From a virus: a stretch of DNA of 64,000 bases. Below are positions 22,937 through 61,027 of this stretch, one piece after another. Made by a program: the position numbers and the translations under genes. Within the stretch, counting starts at the first letter, position 1, and each line of letters opens with the position of its first letter. Location of the stretch: IMG/VR virus record IMGVR_UViG_3300046692_000072, positions 1 through 64,000 of that record. One strand, given 5' to 3'. The notes below the pieces were generated by a model. That model made no database searches, was not told where the DNA came from, and worked only from the letters and a program-made list of their open reading frames with translations.

Positions 22937-24145
22937 TCAGATTGGTGCAACAGTCTTGATCAGACCGAGACGTTCAGGACGCTTAACAAGCAGACCGTAG
23001 TACCACTTGATCGAGCTGAAGCCAGTCTCACCGTAAGGATCGTTACGGTCAGCAGTGGCATTACCTGGCATCTTGGTGAGAACGGAGAACTTAACCGTCT
23101 TACCATCCGTCTGGAAGCCAATGGTAACGAACGAATCATCACCAATAACCAGCATCGGGAACACGTCGAAGTGTGCCGTACCGCCAACTACCGTAGTACG
23201 GTAACCGTTGTCCGAGGTGACAACAGCAGCACCAGCACCTTCCCAAGACAGCATTTCCGGGACCACGATGAGACGGAACTCATCGACCGAACCGATTTCG
23301 CCGTTCATGATCGTACCGGCATCGCCATACTGTTGAACAGGAACGAATGCTGGGTTGTTGAACAGATCGACCATCTGACGAACAACCGGGATCAGCTCGG
23401 AACCAATGAACATGACACGACCAGCAGAGATGGTTTTCGTGTCGATATTACGGGAACCAGTGATGATCTTGGTCTGCTTCGGAGTACGGTTGTCCGTGAG
23501 GGTCTGGCTCAGACGCATGAGCAGACGATACGAAACAACATCTGGAGTCGTCTCACCCGAGAGCTCATCCGTGTCAGTTGCCTGACCAGAATAAAGCAGA
23601 ACACCACCTTCAGCAGCAGCAAGCAGATCCTTCTGGAGGACAGCTTCCGTAAGCTGAACGGCACCGTTCATCAGTTCACGAGACAGGTGATCCATGAGAC
23701 CATCGTCCGAATCGAAGTCCAGAGATTCCTGAGTAAATTCAGTGAAGAAACCGAACTTCAGGATCGAACCTTCGCGGTCGATACGAGTGAAACCAACGCG
23801 GTTCACACGACCACCGTTTTCAGTCAGAAGCGGGAGCTTCGTAGAGATCGTACCAACGTCCTTGCTCGAACCATAAAGGTTACCAGCAGAGATGGTTACA
23901 CCGTTAGCATCGATACCCTGGTCATTGATGTTACGGTCATCGAGCAGAGGAACGTATTCATAGACCTTGATGGTCTTACCGAAGTTCTTCGGCATACCAA
24001 TCGTGGACGACAGAGGCATGAAGTACTGGTCTTTGCGCGACTGAATAATAGCGCTCTTGAGCCAGAAGAAGGTACGCATCTGATCGGACGAAGCACCGTC
24101 AATAGACGACTTCTGACCATCAATAGGAGCGTTATAATTAAGCAT
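22937..24145 (-). CDS. Major capsid protein (N4 gp56 type)
   Basis: 402 residues, against about 401 in N4 gp56. The N-terminus ([20 protein letters not shown], then [20 protein letters not shown]) is typical of the N4-like HK97-fold capsid protein. It follows the scaffold-like gene and is flanked by non-coding gaps on both sides, consistent with separate high expression. Confidence 0.85.
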
Positions 24146-52889: not shown

Positions 52890-53184
52890 AGAAGCAATAC
52901 TAAAACTCTTCAAGAAAGCAAGAACCAAGAGGCTTAGGCATCTTAAGAGAGAGCTTTATAAAGCTGAACACGTCCGTTACTACATCCAATTTCAATGGAG
53001 AAATCCAAATGGATGTCAAGGAGACCCTCGTGATTTTAGATCTTGGAGGGTCTTTGCAGCTATGCCTATCCTCTTCCATACAAGAGAGGAGGCATGGGAA
53101 TTCATACGTGAAGTTCCAGACATATTCGCTGACTATAGAGGGTGCCGTAAAGTATCCTGTAGTGTGGAACATACAAGAATCTAG
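52879..53184 (+). CDS. Hypothetical basic protein (101 residues)
   Basis: VEEAILKLFKKARTKRLRHL, then RDFRSWRVFAAMPILFHTRE, EAWEFIREVPDIFADYRGCR. Basic N-terminus, aromatic middle. No family recognised. Confidence 0.55.
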   Translation: MSVEEAILKLFKKARTKRLRHLKRELYKAEHVRYYIQFQWRNPNGCQGDPRDFRSWRVFAAMPILFHTREEAWEFIREVPDIFADYRGCRKVSCSVEHTRI

Positions 53185-53218
53185 GAGAAATGCTTTGGAA
53201 TCTAAGAACTATAATACC

Positions 53219-53473
53219 ATGACTTCCGAGATGAGACGACTCATCAGGAAAGCATACGAAGAAGATCAAGGTGGTATCTGCTACCACTGCAAAGAAGTCC
53301 TTACTGGTCCACCCAGTAAAGAGATCCAGAACAAGGTAATCAATAAGAATCTATTCCCGAATGGATTCTTCAATAACCCTGTTCATCTTCACCACAACCA
53401 CAATACAGGCATGACCATCGGAGCAGTACATTGCAAATGTAATGCTGTCCTATGGCAATATCACGGAGAGTGA
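53219..53473 (+). CDS. Endonuclease-VII/HNH-like protein
   Basis: 84 residues from ATG 53219. CYHCKEVL, then VHLHHNHNTGMTIGAVHCKC and NAVLWQYHGE match the recombination endonuclease VII/HNH pattern: two Cys pairs for zinc and HxHNxxTG for the active site (usually DHDHxTG). The Asp is replaced by Asn or His here, so activity is uncertain. It stands 189 bases before the catalytic polymerase subunit and could be a mobile nuclease. Confidence 0.65.
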   Translation: MTSEMRRLIRKAYEEDQGGICYHCKEVLTGPPSKEIQNKVINKNLFPNGFFNNPVHLHHNHNTGMTIGAVHCKCNAVLWQYHGE

Positions 53474-53474
53474 A

Positions 53475-53648
53475 ATGACTGTAGCTGAACTCATTGAGGA
53501 GCTTAAGAAGCTCCCTCAGGATGCAATAGTCCTCCAGTACGGTGGTGACGAGTTCTATCACATAGCTGAAGGTGTAGAGCTTCAGAAAACAAATAGAGAT
53601 ATCGACTGGGATGGGAAAGTAACAGGCCCATTTGTCACCCTATTCTAA
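53475..53648 (+). CDS. Small hypothetical protein (57 residues)
   Basis: MTVAELIEELKKLPQDAIVL, then QYGGDEFYHIAEGVEL. This N-terminus (TVAELIEELKKLP) is common in small phage proteins of unknown function. Confidence 0.65.
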   Translation: MTVAELIEELKKLPQDAIVLQYGGDEFYHIAEGVELQKTNRDIDWDGKVTGPFVTLF

Positions 53649-53661
53649 CAGGAGAAATACC

Positions 53662-54870
53662 ATGCAACTCTTCAGCGGTGTCGAGTACTTGCAGATTGAT
53701 ATTGCCAACAACTTCGGACTCGACAAAAAGGATTGGGACATTCGTCTCAACTGGTTCAAGGACAATGAAGATAAACTTCTCTCACTGGTTCAGCAAGCTG
53801 AAGAGCCCGCATTGTATTATGCTGGCGTCAAAGCCTGGAATGACCATCTTGCAGGAAAGAATTGTCACTATCCGATCTCACTCGACGCAACCTCGTCTGG
53901 ACTACAAATCTTGGCTTGCCTCACAGGCGATAGGAAAGCGTCTCAGATATGCAACGTGGTTGATACCGGAAAGCGAGAAGACGCTTATACGGCGATCTAT
54001 GAGGCGATGCTCTCCTGCACAGGAGGCGAAAACAAGATCGAGCGTAAGCAGACCAAGCAGGCGGTAATGACCTCGCTCTACGGGTCAGAAGCTGTGCCTA
54101 AGTCTGTGTTTGGTGAGGGAGCTCTCTTAGCTCTCTTTGAACAAACCATGGACGATCAAGCCCCTGGTGCATGGGAACTTAACAAGCAGATGCTTGCTCT
54201 GTGGAATCCAGAAGCCTATGATTATCATTGGGTTATGCCTGATAACTTCAATGTTCACATTAAGGTTATGCAGATGACTTCTGAAAATGTCCATTTCCTG
54301 GACAAGCCTTATGAAGTCAGCTATGCCGTCAATGCTCCTATGGAGCGAGGTCGGTCTCTCGGTGCTAACATGACGCATTCCATTGATGGAATGATCGTGC
54401 GAGAGATGACACGTCGCTGCATGTACAACCTCGAAAAGGTTCTATACATCAGAGACATCCTCTGCGATCCCTCAACCAAAACCTTCACACATGGAGCCAA
54501 GGATGAGAATGCGAAAATGGTCATGGCGCTTTGGAGTCACTATCAGGCGTCTGGGTTCCTTAGTGCTAGGATCCTTGACCATCTTACTCTGGATACTATT
54601 CCTCTTGTCGATAGGATGGTTATTCTGGACCTTATTCAATCACTTCCTCGGAGACCCTTTCAGGTCATCGCGGTACATGATTGTTTCAGATGCCTACCTA
54701 ACTACGGAAATGATCTCAGAAAACAGTACAATATACTGCTCTCTGGAATCGCCAAATCCCGACTACTCTCCCACCTGCTTACGCAGATCACCGGGAGAAA
54801 GATGGAAGTTGGCAAGCTCGACCATGGGCTCTGGGTTGATGTGCTCAATACCAACTACGCCCTCTCCTAA
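53662..54870 (+). CDS. RNA polymerase II catalytic subunit (N4 gp16 type)
   Basis: 402 residues from ATG 53662 behind AGGAGAAATACC (N4 gp16: about 404). It carries the T7-type catalytic motifs: A, SLDATSSGLQ with Asp75; B, RKQTKQAVMTSLYG with Arg128, Lys132 and Tyr140 in exactly the T7 spacing (R627, K631, Y639); C, VHDCF with Asp340. It pairs with the gp15-like subunit. A strong terminator follows. Confidence 0.9.
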   Translation: MQLFSGVEYLQIDIANNFGLDKKDWDIRLNWFKDNEDKLLSLVQQAEEPALYYAGVKAWNDHLAGKNCHYPISLDATSSGLQILACLTGDRKASQICNVVDTGKREDAYTAIYEAMLSCTGGENKIERKQTKQAVMTSLYGSEAVPKSVFGEGALLALFEQTMDDQAPGAWELNKQMLALWNPEAYDYHWVMPDNFNVHIKVMQMTSENVHFLDKPYEVSYAVNAPMERGRSLGANMTHSIDGMIVREMTRRCMYNLEKVLYIRDILCDPSTKTFTHGAKDENAKMVMALWSHYQASGFLSARILDHLTLDTIPLVDRMVILDLIQSLPRRPFQVIAVHDCFRCLPNYGNDLRKQYNILLSGIAKSRLLSHLLTQITGRKMEVGKLDHGLWVDVLNTNYALS

Positions 54871-54930: not shown

Positions 54931-54970
54931 TATAGACCACCTAGTTAAACCACCTAGCTAGGAAGAACTA
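54931..54970 (+). promoter_or_regulatory. Promoter-like region before the decoration module
   Basis: TATAGACCACCTAGTTAAACCACCTAGCTAGG: a TAGACC motif and two copies of ACCACCTAG, between a strong terminator and AGGAAGAACTAATG. A new transcript probably starts here. Confidence 0.4.
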
Positions 54971-57900
54971 ATGAGCATTTTGAGAGTATTTTATAATCCT
55001 GGAACCAAGAGTGTGAGGATTAGGGAACAAGGTCTTGCTGATCTTGCTGCTCCATATGTACTCGCGGGATCTTTCGAACATGGTGGTAGCAATGATCCAG
55101 AAGGCTGGGATCATAACCACGTCATGTATCACCATGTCAGAGATGCTCTGTACAAGGTTGGTGTTCAGGACATGAACTCGGTCCATATTCTGTCCATTCT
55201 CTATGTTGGACAGAAGGCTATCACCTATAGTGATAGTGGTGAGATCGCTGAGAACACTCCTGTTGGTACTATTGTATCGACACTCTCTGTCCTCAATGGC
55301 TCTGGATCCTACATCTTCACAGAACTGTCAGATACTGATGGCAAGTTCGTAATTGAAGGTTCCAACATCAAGCTTGCTGCTGCATTGGATTATGAGACTA
55401 AGACTTCTCATACTATCGATGTGCAGGCTGATGGTGTCGGTGGTCCTCTTACTCGTTCGCATGTATTTAACGTAAGCAACGAGAATGACCCAATTATCAA
55501 CATCTCTGCTGTCAACATTGTTGAGTCTGCCACTGTAGGTACTACGGTAGGCGTTCTCTCTATTACCAATGGTTCAGGTTCTTATACCTTCACCAAGATT
55601 GCTGACCCAGATAGCAAGTTCGTTATCTCTGGTAACAACCTCAATCTGGCTGCTGCTATCGACTATGAGACCAAAGCTTTCCACAGCGTCACTGTTCAAG
55701 CTGCTGGTACTGGTGGACCGGTCACGAGAACGATCAACATCAACGTCAGCAATGCTGTTGAAGGTACGCTTGCACCTACGACTGCCTCTATCACTGATGA
55801 GATTGCTGATGGCGCTACCGTCTTTACCGTTACCGGTTTTGACGTTGGAGCCAATGAGGTAATCTCCAGCATTTCGCCAAATGATGGTCGATTCGCTATT
55901 GCCTCTGGTAACAGGATCGTCAAGGGTCTCAGCGCTGTGTCGGCAGGTACTGTAGCTCTTACGCTTACGATGTCTACTGGTCGTACCCTTACGAACAACA
56001 TCACCATCACGACTACCTCGCTCCCTGACTACACTTTCCAAGCAGAAACCGATGCACTTCAAGTGTCTCGTACTGCTGCTGGTATCCCCATGACTCGTCG
56101 TCAGAAGCTTGCTTTTGACCGTATGGTGGTACGTGTTAAGGCTGCTGGTGTTAGCGTTGCTGATTGGGCTGCTCTTTATGTCCCATCTACACCTACGGAA
56201 GTACAAGCTCGTGTTAACCAGATTCACCCTGGAACCAACGATCTGGTACCCGTAACTACCGTTCCCACTTACACTGCCAACGATAAGTGGAGTGCTTTCG
56301 GTACGCCTAAATACAATACCGGTATTGGTCTCCAGAGCTTTGCTCAGGGGCAGTTCACCATCTTCTTCTACTCACGCACCACTGCGGGTGCCTCGGGTGG
56401 TGACTTTGGTGCTCAGACCGCTGGTGGTGATGGTATTGCTGCTAACACCCGTGACGCTTCGAACAAGTTCAATGCCCGTCTTCAGGGTACAAACTATGCA
56501 TCAGTAGGTACTACCTTCACCCCTGGTCAGGGTATGTACTCCATCCGTCCTAACAAGCTGGATACCTTTGGTATCAAGCGTGAAGACACCTCCACTACCT
56601 ATGTTGCTCCAGCAACCAATCCAACAATCCACCTTGGTGGTATTAATGGTGGTGCCTCAGCAGGCAAGGATTGCGGTCTCTTTGCAATCTTCAAGGTCAC
56701 CTTGACTGATGCTCAGAATCGGGAAGTCAGTGCTGCTCTGCTCGACTACTACTACAAAGTTCGCTTTGGTATGGTCGATTACTACGAAGCTGGTAAAGCC
56801 CCAACCACTGCCGATTACGATGTCGTGGTCTATGGTGCTAGCTGGACTGCTGTCTGTGCTGCTTATGCTGCCAAGCAGGAAGGCAAGAGCGTCTGCATCG
56901 TCTGTGATGAGCACGCTAAGACGGACTGGGATATCGGTGGTATGCCTGCATCCGGTCTTGCCTATGTGGACTGCTACAACTACACGGCAATGAAGGGTCT
57001 CTATCGAGATCTGACCCAGTGGGTAAACACCACGATCATCAACCGTGCAGATACGAACAACCAAGCAGGTAACTCTGTTGAAAGCTGGCAGTTCTGCCAA
57101 GCTGTTCGTCGTATGCTAGATCCAGCACGAACCAATGGTACTCTGATCTTTGGTCAGGATATCCCTGTCTACTTCTCTACCGGTATTCAGTCCATTACCT
57201 CGGTAGGTACGAAAGACACTGCTCTCCATACTAAGGATGGCAGAACCTTTACCGGTAAGGTCTTTGTATCCGCTGACTATGATGGCGAATACAACCACAT
57301 GTCCACTGGTATTCCTACCATCACTGGTATCGAAGCTGCTGGATCTGGTTCTGAAGCCAACAACGGTTACAAGGGCTCCGGCTCCATGAGCAAGCCCTAT
57401 GGTTCAGACATCAGCCCTTACATCACTGAAGGTAACTCTGGATCTGGTCTTCTCCCTGATATTCAGGGTGAAATGCCTCTTCCTGGTTTGACCATTGGTA
57501 ATGCCATCACTGCTCTTGAGAGCATGAACTATCGTCTCGCCATGACGACTGATCCTGCTCGTGTGGTTCCAGTTACCACTATGGATCCACATCGTAACTA
57601 TAATGCTCTACGTTATGAGACTGCCGGTCGTGCCTATGTCCTCAATCCAAGTGCACAGATTAGCAACCTGTCCGGTACCCAAACTCTGCTGCAATTTGCA
57701 GTCGGTGGCACATCGAACAAGATCGATGTGAACAACGGTTCGGGCGGTCTGTCTACTGACCTTCCTGGTTCTGGTTATCGTTATGCCACGGCAGCGGATT
57801 CTGCTGCTCGTAAGGCAGTTATCGATGACCTCCGGGATTATCAGCTTGGTTGGTTCTGGTGGCACAACAACTCGGGGGATTCTCGTATTCCTTCCTCGTT

Positions 57901-58471
57901 GCGTACCTCCATGCTAGCTCTTGGACTTGATGCAGGTACTTTCCTGGATCCAGGTCCAGATGGTCTCCTGTTCTGGCCTAACCGTCCGTATCAGCGTGAT
58001 CCTGTCTGGCGCCTCAAAAACACTGGTTACGTCTCGACTGCACAGGATTATTGCAAGACGGATGGTACGTCGCTTCGGTCTGACAAGACCATTGCTGCAA
58101 CCTCCTATGACTGCGATAAGCATCCTGAATGGAAGGTAGCCTCTGGCGGACTTCTCTACACTCAGGGTTCTGTTCCAGGTGGTCTCCAAGCTGGTGTTGA
58201 CCGTATGGCTCCAATTCCTTTGGAAGAGATTGTCCCTGACGTTGGTGTCAAGACGAACGTTATCGTTCCTTGGGCTTCGTCCTGCACGATTCTCTGCTGG
58301 TACATGAGCCGTCTTGAGCCAACTGGTGGTCATAAGGGTGAAGCAGCAGGCGTCATTGCCTCTATGGCAATTGACGGAAACATCGAAGTGCAGAACGTAG
58401 ACTACACTTCCCTGCGTACTAAGTTGCTGGCAAGAGATGTGAACCACCCTTACCTGCCACAGGTCGCATAA
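54971..58471 (+). CDS. Virion decoration/fibre protein fused to an FAD-dependent oxidoreductase domain
   Basis: 1,166 residues. Parts in order: (1) residues 1-75, a module shared with the 58544 protein (HNHVMYHHVRDALYKVGVQD); (2) two cadherin-like repeats at about 88-172 and 173-258 (NGSGSYIFTELSDTDGKFVI; NGSGSYTFTKIADPDSKFVI) and a third diverged unit to about 350; (3) about 355-610, a lectin-like module seen in phage adhesins (RQKLAFDRMVVRVKAAGVSV, FTIFFYSRTT, LGGINGG); (4) about 613-1166, an FAD-dependent oxidoreductase of the FAD_oxidored (PF12831) type: DYDVVVYGASWTAVCAAYAA, then DIGGMPASG, NYRLAMTTDPARVVPVTTMD, IPLEEIVPDV and GHKGEAAGVIASMA. The dinucleotide loop is GASWTA instead of GxGxxG. 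It follows RNAPII, where N4 encodes head-decoration protein gp17. FAD binding and display on the virion are inferred. Confidence 0.75.
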   Translation: MSILRVFYNPGTKSVRIREQGLADLAAPYVLAGSFEHGGSNDPEGWDHNHVMYHHVRDALYKVGVQDMNSVHILSILYVGQKAITYSDSGEIAENTPVGTIVSTLSVLNGSGSYIFTELSDTDGKFVIEGSNIKLAAALDYETKTSHTIDVQADGVGGPLTRSHVFNVSNENDPIINISAVNIVESATVGTTVGVLSITNGSGSYTFTKIADPDSKFVISGNNLNLAAAIDYETKAFHSVTVQAAGTGGPVTRTININVSNAVEGTLAPTTASITDEIADGATVFTVTGFDVGANEVISSISPNDGRFAIASGNRIVKGLSAVSAGTVALTLTMSTGRTLTNNITITTTSLPDYTFQAETDALQVSRTAAGIPMTRRQKLAFDRMVVRVKAAGVSVADWAALYVPSTPTEVQARVNQIHPGTNDLVPVTTVPTYTANDKWSAFGTPKYNTGIGLQSFAQGQFTIFFYSRTTAGASGGDFGAQTAGGDGIAANTRDASNKFNARLQGTNYASVGTTFTPGQGMYSIRPNKLDTFGIKREDTSTTYVAPATNPTIHLGGINGGASAGKDCGLFAIFKVTLTDAQNREVSAALLDYYYKVRFGMVDYYEAGKAPTTADYDVVVYGASWTAVCAAYAAKQEGKSVCIVCDEHAKTDWDIGGMPASGLAYVDCYNYTAMKGLYRDLTQWVNTTIINRADTNNQAGNSVESWQFCQAVRRMLDPARTNGTLIFGQDIPVYFSTGIQSITSVGTKDTALHTKDGRTFTGKVFVSADYDGEYNHMSTGIPTITGIEAAGSGSEANNGYKGSGSMSKPYGSDISPYITEGNSGSGLLPDIQGEMPLPGLTIGNAITALESMNYRLAMTTDPARVVPVTTMDPHRNYNALRYETAGRAYVLNPSAQISNLSGTQTLLQFAVGGTSNKIDVNNGSGGLSTDLPGSGYRYATAADSAARKAVIDDLRDYQLGWFWWHNNSGDSRIPSSLRTSMLALGLDAGTFLDPGPDGLLFWPNRPYQRDPVWRLKNTGYVSTAQDYCKTDGTSLRSDKTIAATSYDCDKHPEWKVASGGLLYTQGSVPGGLQAGVDRMAPIPLEEIVPDVGVKTNVIVPWASSCTILCWYMSRLEPTGGHKGEAAGVIASMAIDGNIEVQNVDYTSLRTKLLARDVNHPYLPQVA

Positions 58472-58530: not shown

Positions 58531-58543
58531 TATGAGGATCCTT

Positions 58544-59050
58544 ATGACTACTTATCAATGTGCCTTTAAGGCAACCGGTAACACTGCTGTTGTTACCATG
58601 CAGCGTGCTGCTGACACTCTTCCTGCTGGTGCAACTGATATCGGTGACGTTATTCATGACGTAGAGCCTGACAATCTGTCTGGTCAGACGACTTTCAATG
58701 ACTCTCACGTCCTTTATCAGCATGTTCAGGAACTCTGCTACAAGCATGGTTGGACGGACATGGCAAACGTCACCATCAATTGGGATGTTGTCGGTGTTGA
58801 GATTACCAATGGTGCAACTGGCACAGTTACTGCTGCCGCTGGTGCTAACCATACTCTACAGCTTTATGCTCGTACTCTTCCTGAGGAAGCTACGTCTGAG
58901 GATATCGTCTGGACGAGTGGTACCCCTGCCAAGGCAACTGTCAACTCGACCGGTCTTGTGACTGGTGTTGCTGCTGGTAGCACTGTTATCACTGCGAAAT
59001 CTAGTGTAGATAATGCTGCACTCGATACGATCACGATTACTGTTACGTAA
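58544..59050 (+). CDS. Ig-like (BIG2) decoration protein, N4 gp17 position
   Basis: 168 residues from ATG 58544 behind GAGGATCCTT. Residues 1-75 (NDSHVLYQHVQELCYKHGWT, DMANVTI) resemble the start of the 1,166-residue protein. Residues 80-168 form a bacterial Ig-like domain of the BIG2 type (SGTPAKATVNSTGLVTGVAA, GSTVITAKS). N4 gp17, a head-decoration protein, lies just after the RNAPII genes, so this is probably its counterpart and residues 1-75 the capsid-binding module. Confidence 0.65.
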   Translation: MTTYQCAFKATGNTAVVTMQRAADTLPAGATDIGDVIHDVEPDNLSGQTTFNDSHVLYQHVQELCYKHGWTDMANVTINWDVVGVEITNGATGTVTAAAGANHTLQLYARTLPEEATSEDIVWTSGTPAKATVNSTGLVTGVAAGSTVITAKSSVDNAALDTITITVT

Positions 59051-59986: not shown

Positions 59987-61027
59987 ATGAGTAACGCGAA
60001 TGCAGTCAGTCCCTTGAGGGCTATGCCTCTTATTAAAATGACCCTGAAGGCTCGTAAGGTTCCTTACCTGAAGTCCTCACCAGGGATTGGTAAGTCCGCT
60101 ATGGCAGCAGAGCTTGCCCAGGAATTCAATCTTAAGCTGATCGACCATCGTATCAGCACCTCTGCTCCGACCGATCTGACAGGCTTGCCTGAGATCCAGA
60201 ATGGAAGGTCTAGCTTTAATCCCTTCGACTTCTTCCCCATTAAGGGGAAAGATGAACCAGTGAAGGGTACGAATGGGTGGCTCCTGTTCCTGGATGAGTT
60301 CAACTCTGGCTCCAAAGCAGTTCTGGCAGCAGCGTACAAGCTGGTGCTGGATAAGAAGGTTGGTCAGTATGACCTCCATCCTAATGTAGCAGTCATGTGT
60401 GCGGGTAACCGTGACACAGACCGTGCTATCACCACCAACATCGGTACTGCTATGCAGTCTCGATTGACCACCTATAATATTGAACTCAACAATGATGAGT
60501 TCATCAACCATGTCATGATCAAACAAAAATGGGATGATCGTGTCATCGCCTATCTGTCCTCAGAACCAAACAAGATCAATGACTTCCGTCCTGATCACTC
60601 TGATGACACCTTTTGCTGCCCGCGTACCTGGGACAGTGTACAGGAACAGATCAAGGGTGAGAAAATCACTCGTGCACATCTGCCCCTGATTGGTGGTACT
60701 ATCACCTCTGGCGTAGCTGCCGACTTCCTGACCTTCCTTGATGTCTATCAGGATATGCCGAAATTTGAGGACGTTCTTCGTGAACCAAACTCATACCCGC
60801 TTCCGACAAATCCTCAGCTCAAGTGGGCAGTAGTTTCCAGCTTCTCCCAGAAGACAAACAAGAAGAATTTCAATCAGATCGCTACCTATATTGGTCGATT
60901 TGATATGACCTTCCAGGTTCTGTTCTTCCGTATGACACTTCCCAGCAACCCTGAACTGCGTGAGCTTCCCGAGTTCGGACCCATCGCAGTCAAATTTGCA
61001 AAGTATATGTTCGATGCAGTTAGCTGA
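59987..61027 (+). CDS. MoxR-type AAA+ ATPase (N4 gp24 type)
   Basis: 346 residues behind AAGGACAGAAA. Walker A SSPGIGKSAM (about 28-37), Walker B LLFLDEFNS (about 99-107), then CAGNRDTDRA as sensor region. MoxR-type ATPases work with VWA-domain partners as chaperones; the VWA gene follows with a 14-base overlap. The same pair (gp24/gp25) occurs in N4. The role in infection is not known. Confidence 0.8.
   Translation: MSNANAVSPLRAMPLIKMTLKARKVPYLKSSPGIGKSAMAAELAQEFNLKLIDHRISTSAPTDLTGLPEIQNGRSSFNPFDFFPIKGKDEPVKGTNGWLLFLDEFNSGSKAVLAAAYKLVLDKKVGQYDLHPNVAVMCAGNRDTDRAITTNIGTAMQSRLTTYNIELNNDEFINHVMIKQKWDDRVIAYLSSEPNKINDFRPDHSDDTFCCPRTWDSVQEQIKGEKITRAHLPLIGGTITSGVAADFLTFLDVYQDMPKFEDVLREPNSYPLPTNPQLKWAVVSSFSQKTNKKNFNQIATYIGRFDMTFQVLFFRMTLPSNPELRELPEFGPIAVKFAKYMFDAVS

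Follow-up and report, generated by a model that had tools for sequence, protein, structure and literature searches.

What would a flavin-oxidoreductase fold be doing at the tip of a phage surface protein? The question is raised by a gene at positions 54971–58471 (+) of IMG/VR virus record IMGVR_UViG_3300046692_000072, of which we analysed the first 64 kb (positions 1 to 64000; here called the window) out of 77.7 kb. The gene is a single uninterrupted frame of 1166 amino acids (aa), read from the sequence with a Shine–Dalgarno-like AGGAAG (54960–54965, +) about 5 bases 5′ of its ATG, and it encodes a gp17-type anchor, a cadherin/immunoglobulin (Ig) stalk, a putative concanavalin A (ConA)-like lectin module and a flavin adenine dinucleotide (FAD)-type domain of the FAD_oxidored family (PF12831). 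The product is probably a giant head decoration protein of the gp17 type, carrying a lectin and FAD-fold tip whose main mode of action would be binding or altered chemistry.

The enzymes known from phage surfaces are hydrolases, lyases or esterases that degrade polysaccharides or peptidoglycan. A first-pass annotation of the window, all of whose quoted motifs are present in the open reading frame (ORF) as claimed, knew of no redox flavoenzyme in such a place. Our full-text literature searches, in which subscription journals are thinly covered, also returned no account of a phage fibre, tailspike or head decoration that bears a FAD or oxidoreductase domain. Both parent kinds of protein, the gp17-type decoration and the FAD oxidoreductase, are already known; their arrangement as a fusion is undescribed in the literature searched. 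Term searches of a decoration-protein review brought up no passage that mentions an enzyme-bearing decoration (PMC7602432).

The capsid anchor and its genomic slot

The window encodes a giant vRNAP with the Pfam domains of N4 vRNAP, as well as a portal protein and a terminase, and where the early region aligns its DNA is ~80% identical to the Rhizobium Demetervirinae phages RHEph22, I1_6, RHEph16, N38, Y38 and Y2_6. The phage is N4-like (Schitoviridae), close to the Rhizobium Demetervirinae, and from these relatives its host is assigned to the Rhizobiaceae.

The first-pass annotation had taken residues 1–610 for a virion-surface protein with a shared N-terminal module, a description that the architecture bears out and that can now be sharpened. 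Residues 1–75 (54971–55195, +) are homologous to domain DI of N4 gp17 by profile and Foldseek comparison, with 28% identity to N4 gp17 over residues 1–67. When a profile was built from four Rhizobium-type and metagenomic sequences, with N4 excluded, its only matches across all PDB sequences were gp17-type chains (9e99_J, E=2.7e-7; 9d7z_J, 5e-6). The AlphaFold2 (AF2) model of residues 1–345 was poor overall, with a predicted local distance difference test score (pLDDT) of about 75–85 across most of residues 1–70, and was used for residues 1–75 alone; Foldseek with this weak model placed N4 capsid/vertex chains at ranks 1–3 (E 0.007–0.02). Among the IMG/VR relatives, contigs L125 and L144–L147 encode, directly after RNAP2 in every case, this anchor and then a short Ig-type part, and L144–L147 bridge the window anchor and gp17, with L145 as an intermediate homologue. 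N4 gp17 has been located on the capsid by cryo-electron microscopy, at three copies per asymmetric unit and with an outer domain that makes little capsid contact (PMC11768535). The N-terminal module is thus identified, by homology, as the capsid-binding domain of N4 gp17, a head decoration protein, and for this reason the window protein would be expected on the head surface.

Genomic context points to the same site. The gene order RNAP1–RNAP2–[1166-aa gene]–MoxR–VWA–dCTP deaminase matches that of N4, in which gp17 lies directly after RNAP2 and before the MoxR, VWA and dCTP deaminase genes, and the window gene fills this slot. RNAP2 (53632–54870, +), the upstream neighbour that defines the slot, is 57–58% identical to its counterparts in N4 and further N4-like phages, and the downstream synteny marker, a MoxR-type ATPase (59987–61027, +), is the equivalent of N4 gp24 and 47% identical to it. 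The major capsid protein (22937–24145, −), which forms the surface bound by gp17, is 74.7% identical to N4 gp56. Given the gp17 anchor, the gp17 slot after RNAP2 and this 75%-identical coat protein, a giant capsid decoration protein is the most likely identity of the product, and its first ~75 residues would dock on the capsid at the site of gp17 domain DI.

N4 gp17 (32 kDa; PDB 9E99; PMC11768535) shares the homologous domain DI, the slot after RNAP2 and the coat-protein type, but is 279 aa long and consists of three Ig-like domains that lie flat against the capsid, whereas the window protein continues after its anchor with cadherin-like, lectin and FAD-fold parts, and the three Ig-like domains were not found in it. 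Other gp17-slot proteins likewise depart from the N4 layout, having the anchor and one Big_2 domain, so the three-Ig arrangement appears to be specific to N4; the window protein is gp17-anchored, not a gp17 orthologue over its length. T4 Hoc and similar proteins are also modular Ig-type head decorations and proposed carbohydrate binders (PMC7602432), but Hoc has no enzyme-fold domain and its capsid-binding domain is C-terminal (PMC11768535), whereas the window anchor is N-terminal.

Immediately downstream, a 172-aa protein (58532–59050, +) combines a diverged copy of the anchor with a Big_2 Ig domain (E=2e-10). It is conserved in sister phages, with 64% identity to the ‘structural Ig-like protein’ of RHEph22 and Y2_6, and given this second gp17-type protein, phages of the window type may carry two head decorations.

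Stalk, lectin-like module and FAD fold

Beyond the anchor lie two cadherin-like repeats (residues ~85–262; 55223–55756, +), matched by Pfam PF00028 in two stretches (hmmscan E=1.6e-7), in a region 34–46% identical to the gp17-slot proteins of Rhizobium phages RHEph16 and Y2_6. A third beta-rich domain follows (residues ~263–345; 55757–56005, +) and is common to the sister phages until residue 338. The cadherin/Ig repeats would act as a spacer between the capsid anchor and a tip made of the lectin-like module fused to the FAD_oxidored-fold domain.

The lectin-like module (residues 350–612; 56018–56806, +) was predicted from structure and profile comparisons. Its Foldseek matches in BFVD are mostly phage proteins of the ConA-like lectin/LamG type, including the gp17-slot protein of RHph_N38, from a model partly below pLDDT 60, and hhalign paired its profile at 96% with the lectin-like module of the RHEph22 gp17-slot protein. 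Because the sequence of the module has no match in the PDB, ‘lectin’ is meant here at the level of a predicted fold, a putative jelly-roll.

Comparison with the sister phages puts this tip in context. The gp17-slot proteins of RHEph22 (QXV74714/5), RHph_N38, RHEph16 (QXV74347/8) and RHph_Y2_6 (QIG68779/80) share anchor, cadherin repeats and neighbouring genes with the window. RHEph22, N38, I1_6 and Y38 encode in this slot a 678-aa protein that, like the window protein, combines the anchor and cadherin repeats with a lectin-like module; after it comes a 792-aa protein weakly similar to beta-helix proteins. The slot of RHEph16 and Y2_6 contains a 331-aa anchor–cadherin protein and then a 1206-aa pectin-lyase-fold protein. 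The distal cargo of these Demetervirinae is a separate beta-helix or pectin-lyase-fold protein without a FAD domain, whereas the window has lectin and FAD domains fused on. A Pfam scan found no right-handed beta-helix, the catalytic domain of tailspike depolymerases, in the window protein, the weak beta-helix matches lying in the slot of the sister phages, and the lectin–FAD cassette probably occupies the position of the beta-helix (pectin-lyase-like) proteins in those phages.

The FAD_oxidored domain itself (residues 613–1166; 56807–58468, +) was assigned by Pfam, AF2 and PDB matches. The PF12831 match (hmmscan; residues 617–1152) spans the full profile (1–416 of 416) with 94.6 bits and E=1e-26, against a curated cut-off of 27 bits, and is well above chance. 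An AF2 model of residues 345–1166, built with 56 related sequences, reached a predicted template modelling score (pTM) of 0.90, and most of its FAD part exceeds pLDDT 90. The best Foldseek matches of this model in the PDB were FAD enzymes (E about 1e-6 to 1e-5), among them MnmG, flavocytochrome c3, ketosteroid dehydrogenase and the Tet destructases. The Rossmann/FAD fold proposed in the first-pass annotation was thereby recovered. A phmmer search of the domain against PDB sequences gave no match, which argues that no close relative has been structurally solved.

Alignment with 33 bacterial members placed the family landmarks. The Rossmann strand and loop, DVVVYGASWTAVCAA (residues 617–631; 56819–56863, +), carries YGASWTA, close to the family motif YGxTSx(G/A); the GGM loop, WDIGGMPASGLAYVDC (residues 653–668; 56927–56974, +), fits GG(M/L) and contains the invariant G656, G657, G662 and D667; and the C-terminal motif region reads WASSCTILCWYMSRLEPTGGHKGEAAGVIASMAIDG (58271–58378, +). 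Replacement of the second and third glycines in GASWTA had been singled out as notable, but it does not amount to degeneration: the ‘second glycine’ position is Thr in 31 of the 33 bacterial members, and Ala is common at the ‘third’, occurring in several. Ser in place of that Thr is rare in bacteria and frequent in phage copies. By this alignment the loop is near the family norm, and we rejected a dead enzyme with a degenerate GxGxxG loop as an explanation. Separately, the Rhizobium phages Y55 and I72 (L002/L003) and contigs L171–L173 have altered Rossmann loops (GYGFEAQ, AYGFTVQ and YGFTAQ) with most other invariants kept, so the flavin loop and the remaining conserved residues change independently across phage lineages.

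Recurrence and origin of the lectin–FAD cassette

The pairing of lectin and FAD domains is not confined to the window. The deposited phages RHph_N3_19 (QIG73101), Y55 (QIG68875) and I72 (QIG76482) encode the pair with 27–30% identity to the window protein over ~800 aa, but without a gp17 anchor, as separate ~850-aa genes in the head module that adjoin terminase, portal, capsid or head genes. Two of these homologues bear the GenBank annotation ‘FAD dependent oxidoreductase’, with nothing further. IMG/VR scans for the cassette brought to light 39 distinct contigs, over 30 of them judged phage-borne; ten to eleven records, mostly 40-kb and prophage-like, are 76–83% identical to the window protein. 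Tail-fibre or head genes are frequent neighbours: the FAD protein adjoins a central tail fibre J and an endolysin in L101, a baseplate wedge and tail fibres in L118, and a tail collar fibre and a DNA-ejection protein in L121. In L121 and L124, N-termini that are tail-fibre-like (by PHROGs and by reading of the sequence, respectively) are joined to FAD domains with E=4e-57 and 2e-69, far above the Pfam cut-off. Related FAD fusions thus occur in many phages, and of the refuting outcomes named in the first-pass annotation, neither a different fold nor a lack of related fusions was seen; the exact anchor–FAD fusion occurs in one record only.

Several further observations concern these relatives. 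Contigs L102 and L104 (IMGVR_UViG_2842363717_000001 and _000002) are distinct, prophage-like and share one source-genome number, and each has a lectin–FAD protein. A second large gene stands immediately 5′ of the FAD protein in both L118 (8429–9727) and L119 (6953–9067), and that of L119 hits the PHROG families that the Demetervirinae pectin-lyase-fold protein also hits. A search for phage records with the FAD domain at E<=1 found only four, and the ‘FAD-dependent oxidoreductase’ of P10VF/phiM9 (PMC10783043) was not detectably the same protein.

A maximum-likelihood tree of 74 FAD domains gathered the phage lectin–FAD sequences into one clade (96/86), which joins chromosomal and plasmid FAD oxidoreductases of Rhizobiaceae with 100/100 support. 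L121, L122 and L124 form a second, separate phage group. None of 200 bootstrap trees united it with this clade, which implies two or more captures. The closest cellular sister group consists of exported PF12831 oxidoreductases of Rhizobiaceae such as WP_209160096.1 (Rhizobium sp. AB2/73), and the tree indicates that the FAD domain of the cassette descends from such an enzyme. These enzymes stand alone and have all 31 of the polar residues invariant in the family, whereas the window domain is fused and keeps 21; with a Tat-like signal (RRKFIA in AB2/73) the cellular relatives look exported. Bacterial relatives adjoin TonB/SusD-type receptors, an ABC transporter and a sulfatase, a genomic context that hints at carbohydrate substrates. 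The plasmid relative of AB2/73 (L018:3911–5659) has a VirA-like kinase on one side and virB genes on the other, which is curious for an exported oxidoreductase.

Scanning bacterial contigs with the window protein alone gave no match; an alignment-based scan gave hundreds of bacterial relatives, and the 80 of these that were retained matched the FAD domain only. Since 396 Rhizobiaceae genomes also gave matches to the FAD domain only, at ~30% identity, the prophage-borne cassette appears uncommon in this family. The cassette is probably mobile among phages and derived from an exported FAD oxidoreductase of the Rhizobiaceae.

Binding tip or surface enzyme

Whether the tip still performs the ancestral reaction turns on its conserved residues. 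The 33 bacterial relatives define 50 invariant columns, 31 of them polar, and the window domain keeps 36 of the 50, against 48 in RHph_N3_19. D767, R787, H954, R1013, E1065 and H1107, each invariant in 33/33 relatives, are all replaced (D767S, R787I, H954L, R1013W, E1065Q and H1107I; 57269–58291, +). The claim of a ‘complete’ FAD-dependent oxidoreductase domain therefore holds for the profile, which is matched whole, and is too strong for the residues. Because the full polar set is not present, we regard the window domain as a PF12831 homologue by descent and at most a putative oxidoreductase. Four of the losses (H954, R1013, E1065 and H1107) are shared by a single supported clade made up of the window group, L111, L112 and L113, as expected if one functional cluster had been abandoned or remodelled.

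Within the window group the ratio of non-synonymous to synonymous substitution rates (dN/dS) is 0.03–0.11, in the lectin and FAD modules alike, so the product is in use, and the suggestion of a decaying relic or pseudogene is contradicted. As six invariant residues are lost yet purifying selection is strong, binding or altered chemistry seems likelier for the window domain than the ancestral reaction: the flavin-site core is kept, the six polar residues are gone, and the tip would most likely engage a host-envelope or environmental polysaccharide.

An active redox flavoenzyme on the capsid, which would bind FAD and oxidize a sugar or surface compound, altering a receptor or exopolysaccharide during adsorption, is a less probable alternative. 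The full-length PF12831 match, the predicted FAD fold and the strong purifying selection suit it, as does the retention of G622, G656–G657, D667, R855, R1009, D1049, H1051, N1096, R1114 and E1116. So do the phage relatives, among which N3_19 and L114 keep 30 of the 31 polar invariants, L116 and L118 29, L168 29–30 and L176 all 31; further Rhizobiaceae and Sphingobium sequences, mostly outside the defining set, keep 28–31. Set against this are the window copy itself, with 10 of 31 polar invariants changed and six of those marked losses, and the phage copies Y55, I72 and L112, which have further altered loops or residues. A wider version, in which phages display a redox-active, sugar-oxidizing head flavoenzyme that some lineages later made into a binding-only tip, we hold to be tentative and on balance unlikely. 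If true, there would be up to about 180 sugar-oxidizing copies per head (three per asymmetric unit, at N4-like occupancy), an oxidative counterpart of the depolymerase tailspikes.

Several points weigh against a decoration protein with a mainly binding tip. Loss of invariant residues is compatible with retained catalysis and does not prove that catalysis was lost. The protein is placed on the virion by homology, and glycan binding is suggested by fold and context alone. The N-terminal AF2 model is poor past residue 75. Template modelling scores of the FAD domain in Foldseek are low, probably owing to the lectin module and family-specific insertions in the model. Finally, the exact fusion of gp17 anchor and FAD domain was seen in one record only, each junction occurring separately in relatives.

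That the window protein is instead a tail appendage, a receptor-binding fibre, is improbable: several lectin–FAD relatives do adjoin tail-fibre or baseplate genes, but anchor, slot and coat protein agree on the gp17 head site, and the other structural genes of the phage lie elsewhere on the opposite strand. Least credible of all are an assembly artefact as the source of the fusion and a decaying passenger gene, as might be supposed from that single record, since the G+C content of the FAD part (0.51) is near that of the phage (0.47) versus 0.60–0.62 in the nearest relatives, synonymous sites are saturated while dN/dS among relatives is low, and both junctions are known separately, anchor–cadherin–lectin in one ORF in RHEph22 and its relatives and lectin–FAD in one ORF in over 20 phages.

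Apart from the gene itself, an HNH-like ORF (CYHC...HLHHNHNTG; 53009–53473, +) lies between RNAP1 and RNAP2, with a weak Endonuclease_7 match (E=0.055), and is likely a free-standing homing-type endonuclease.

Overall, our analysis presents the gp17 head-decoration slot of N4-like Rhizobium phages as a swappable display site for large cargo. The flavin-oxidoreductase fold has been captured at least twice in phage fibre or decoration proteins, which would give host contact either a new chemistry or a new scaffold for binding. As the homologues range from residue-complete to residue-depleted, the choice between virion enzyme and virion adhesin is directly testable.

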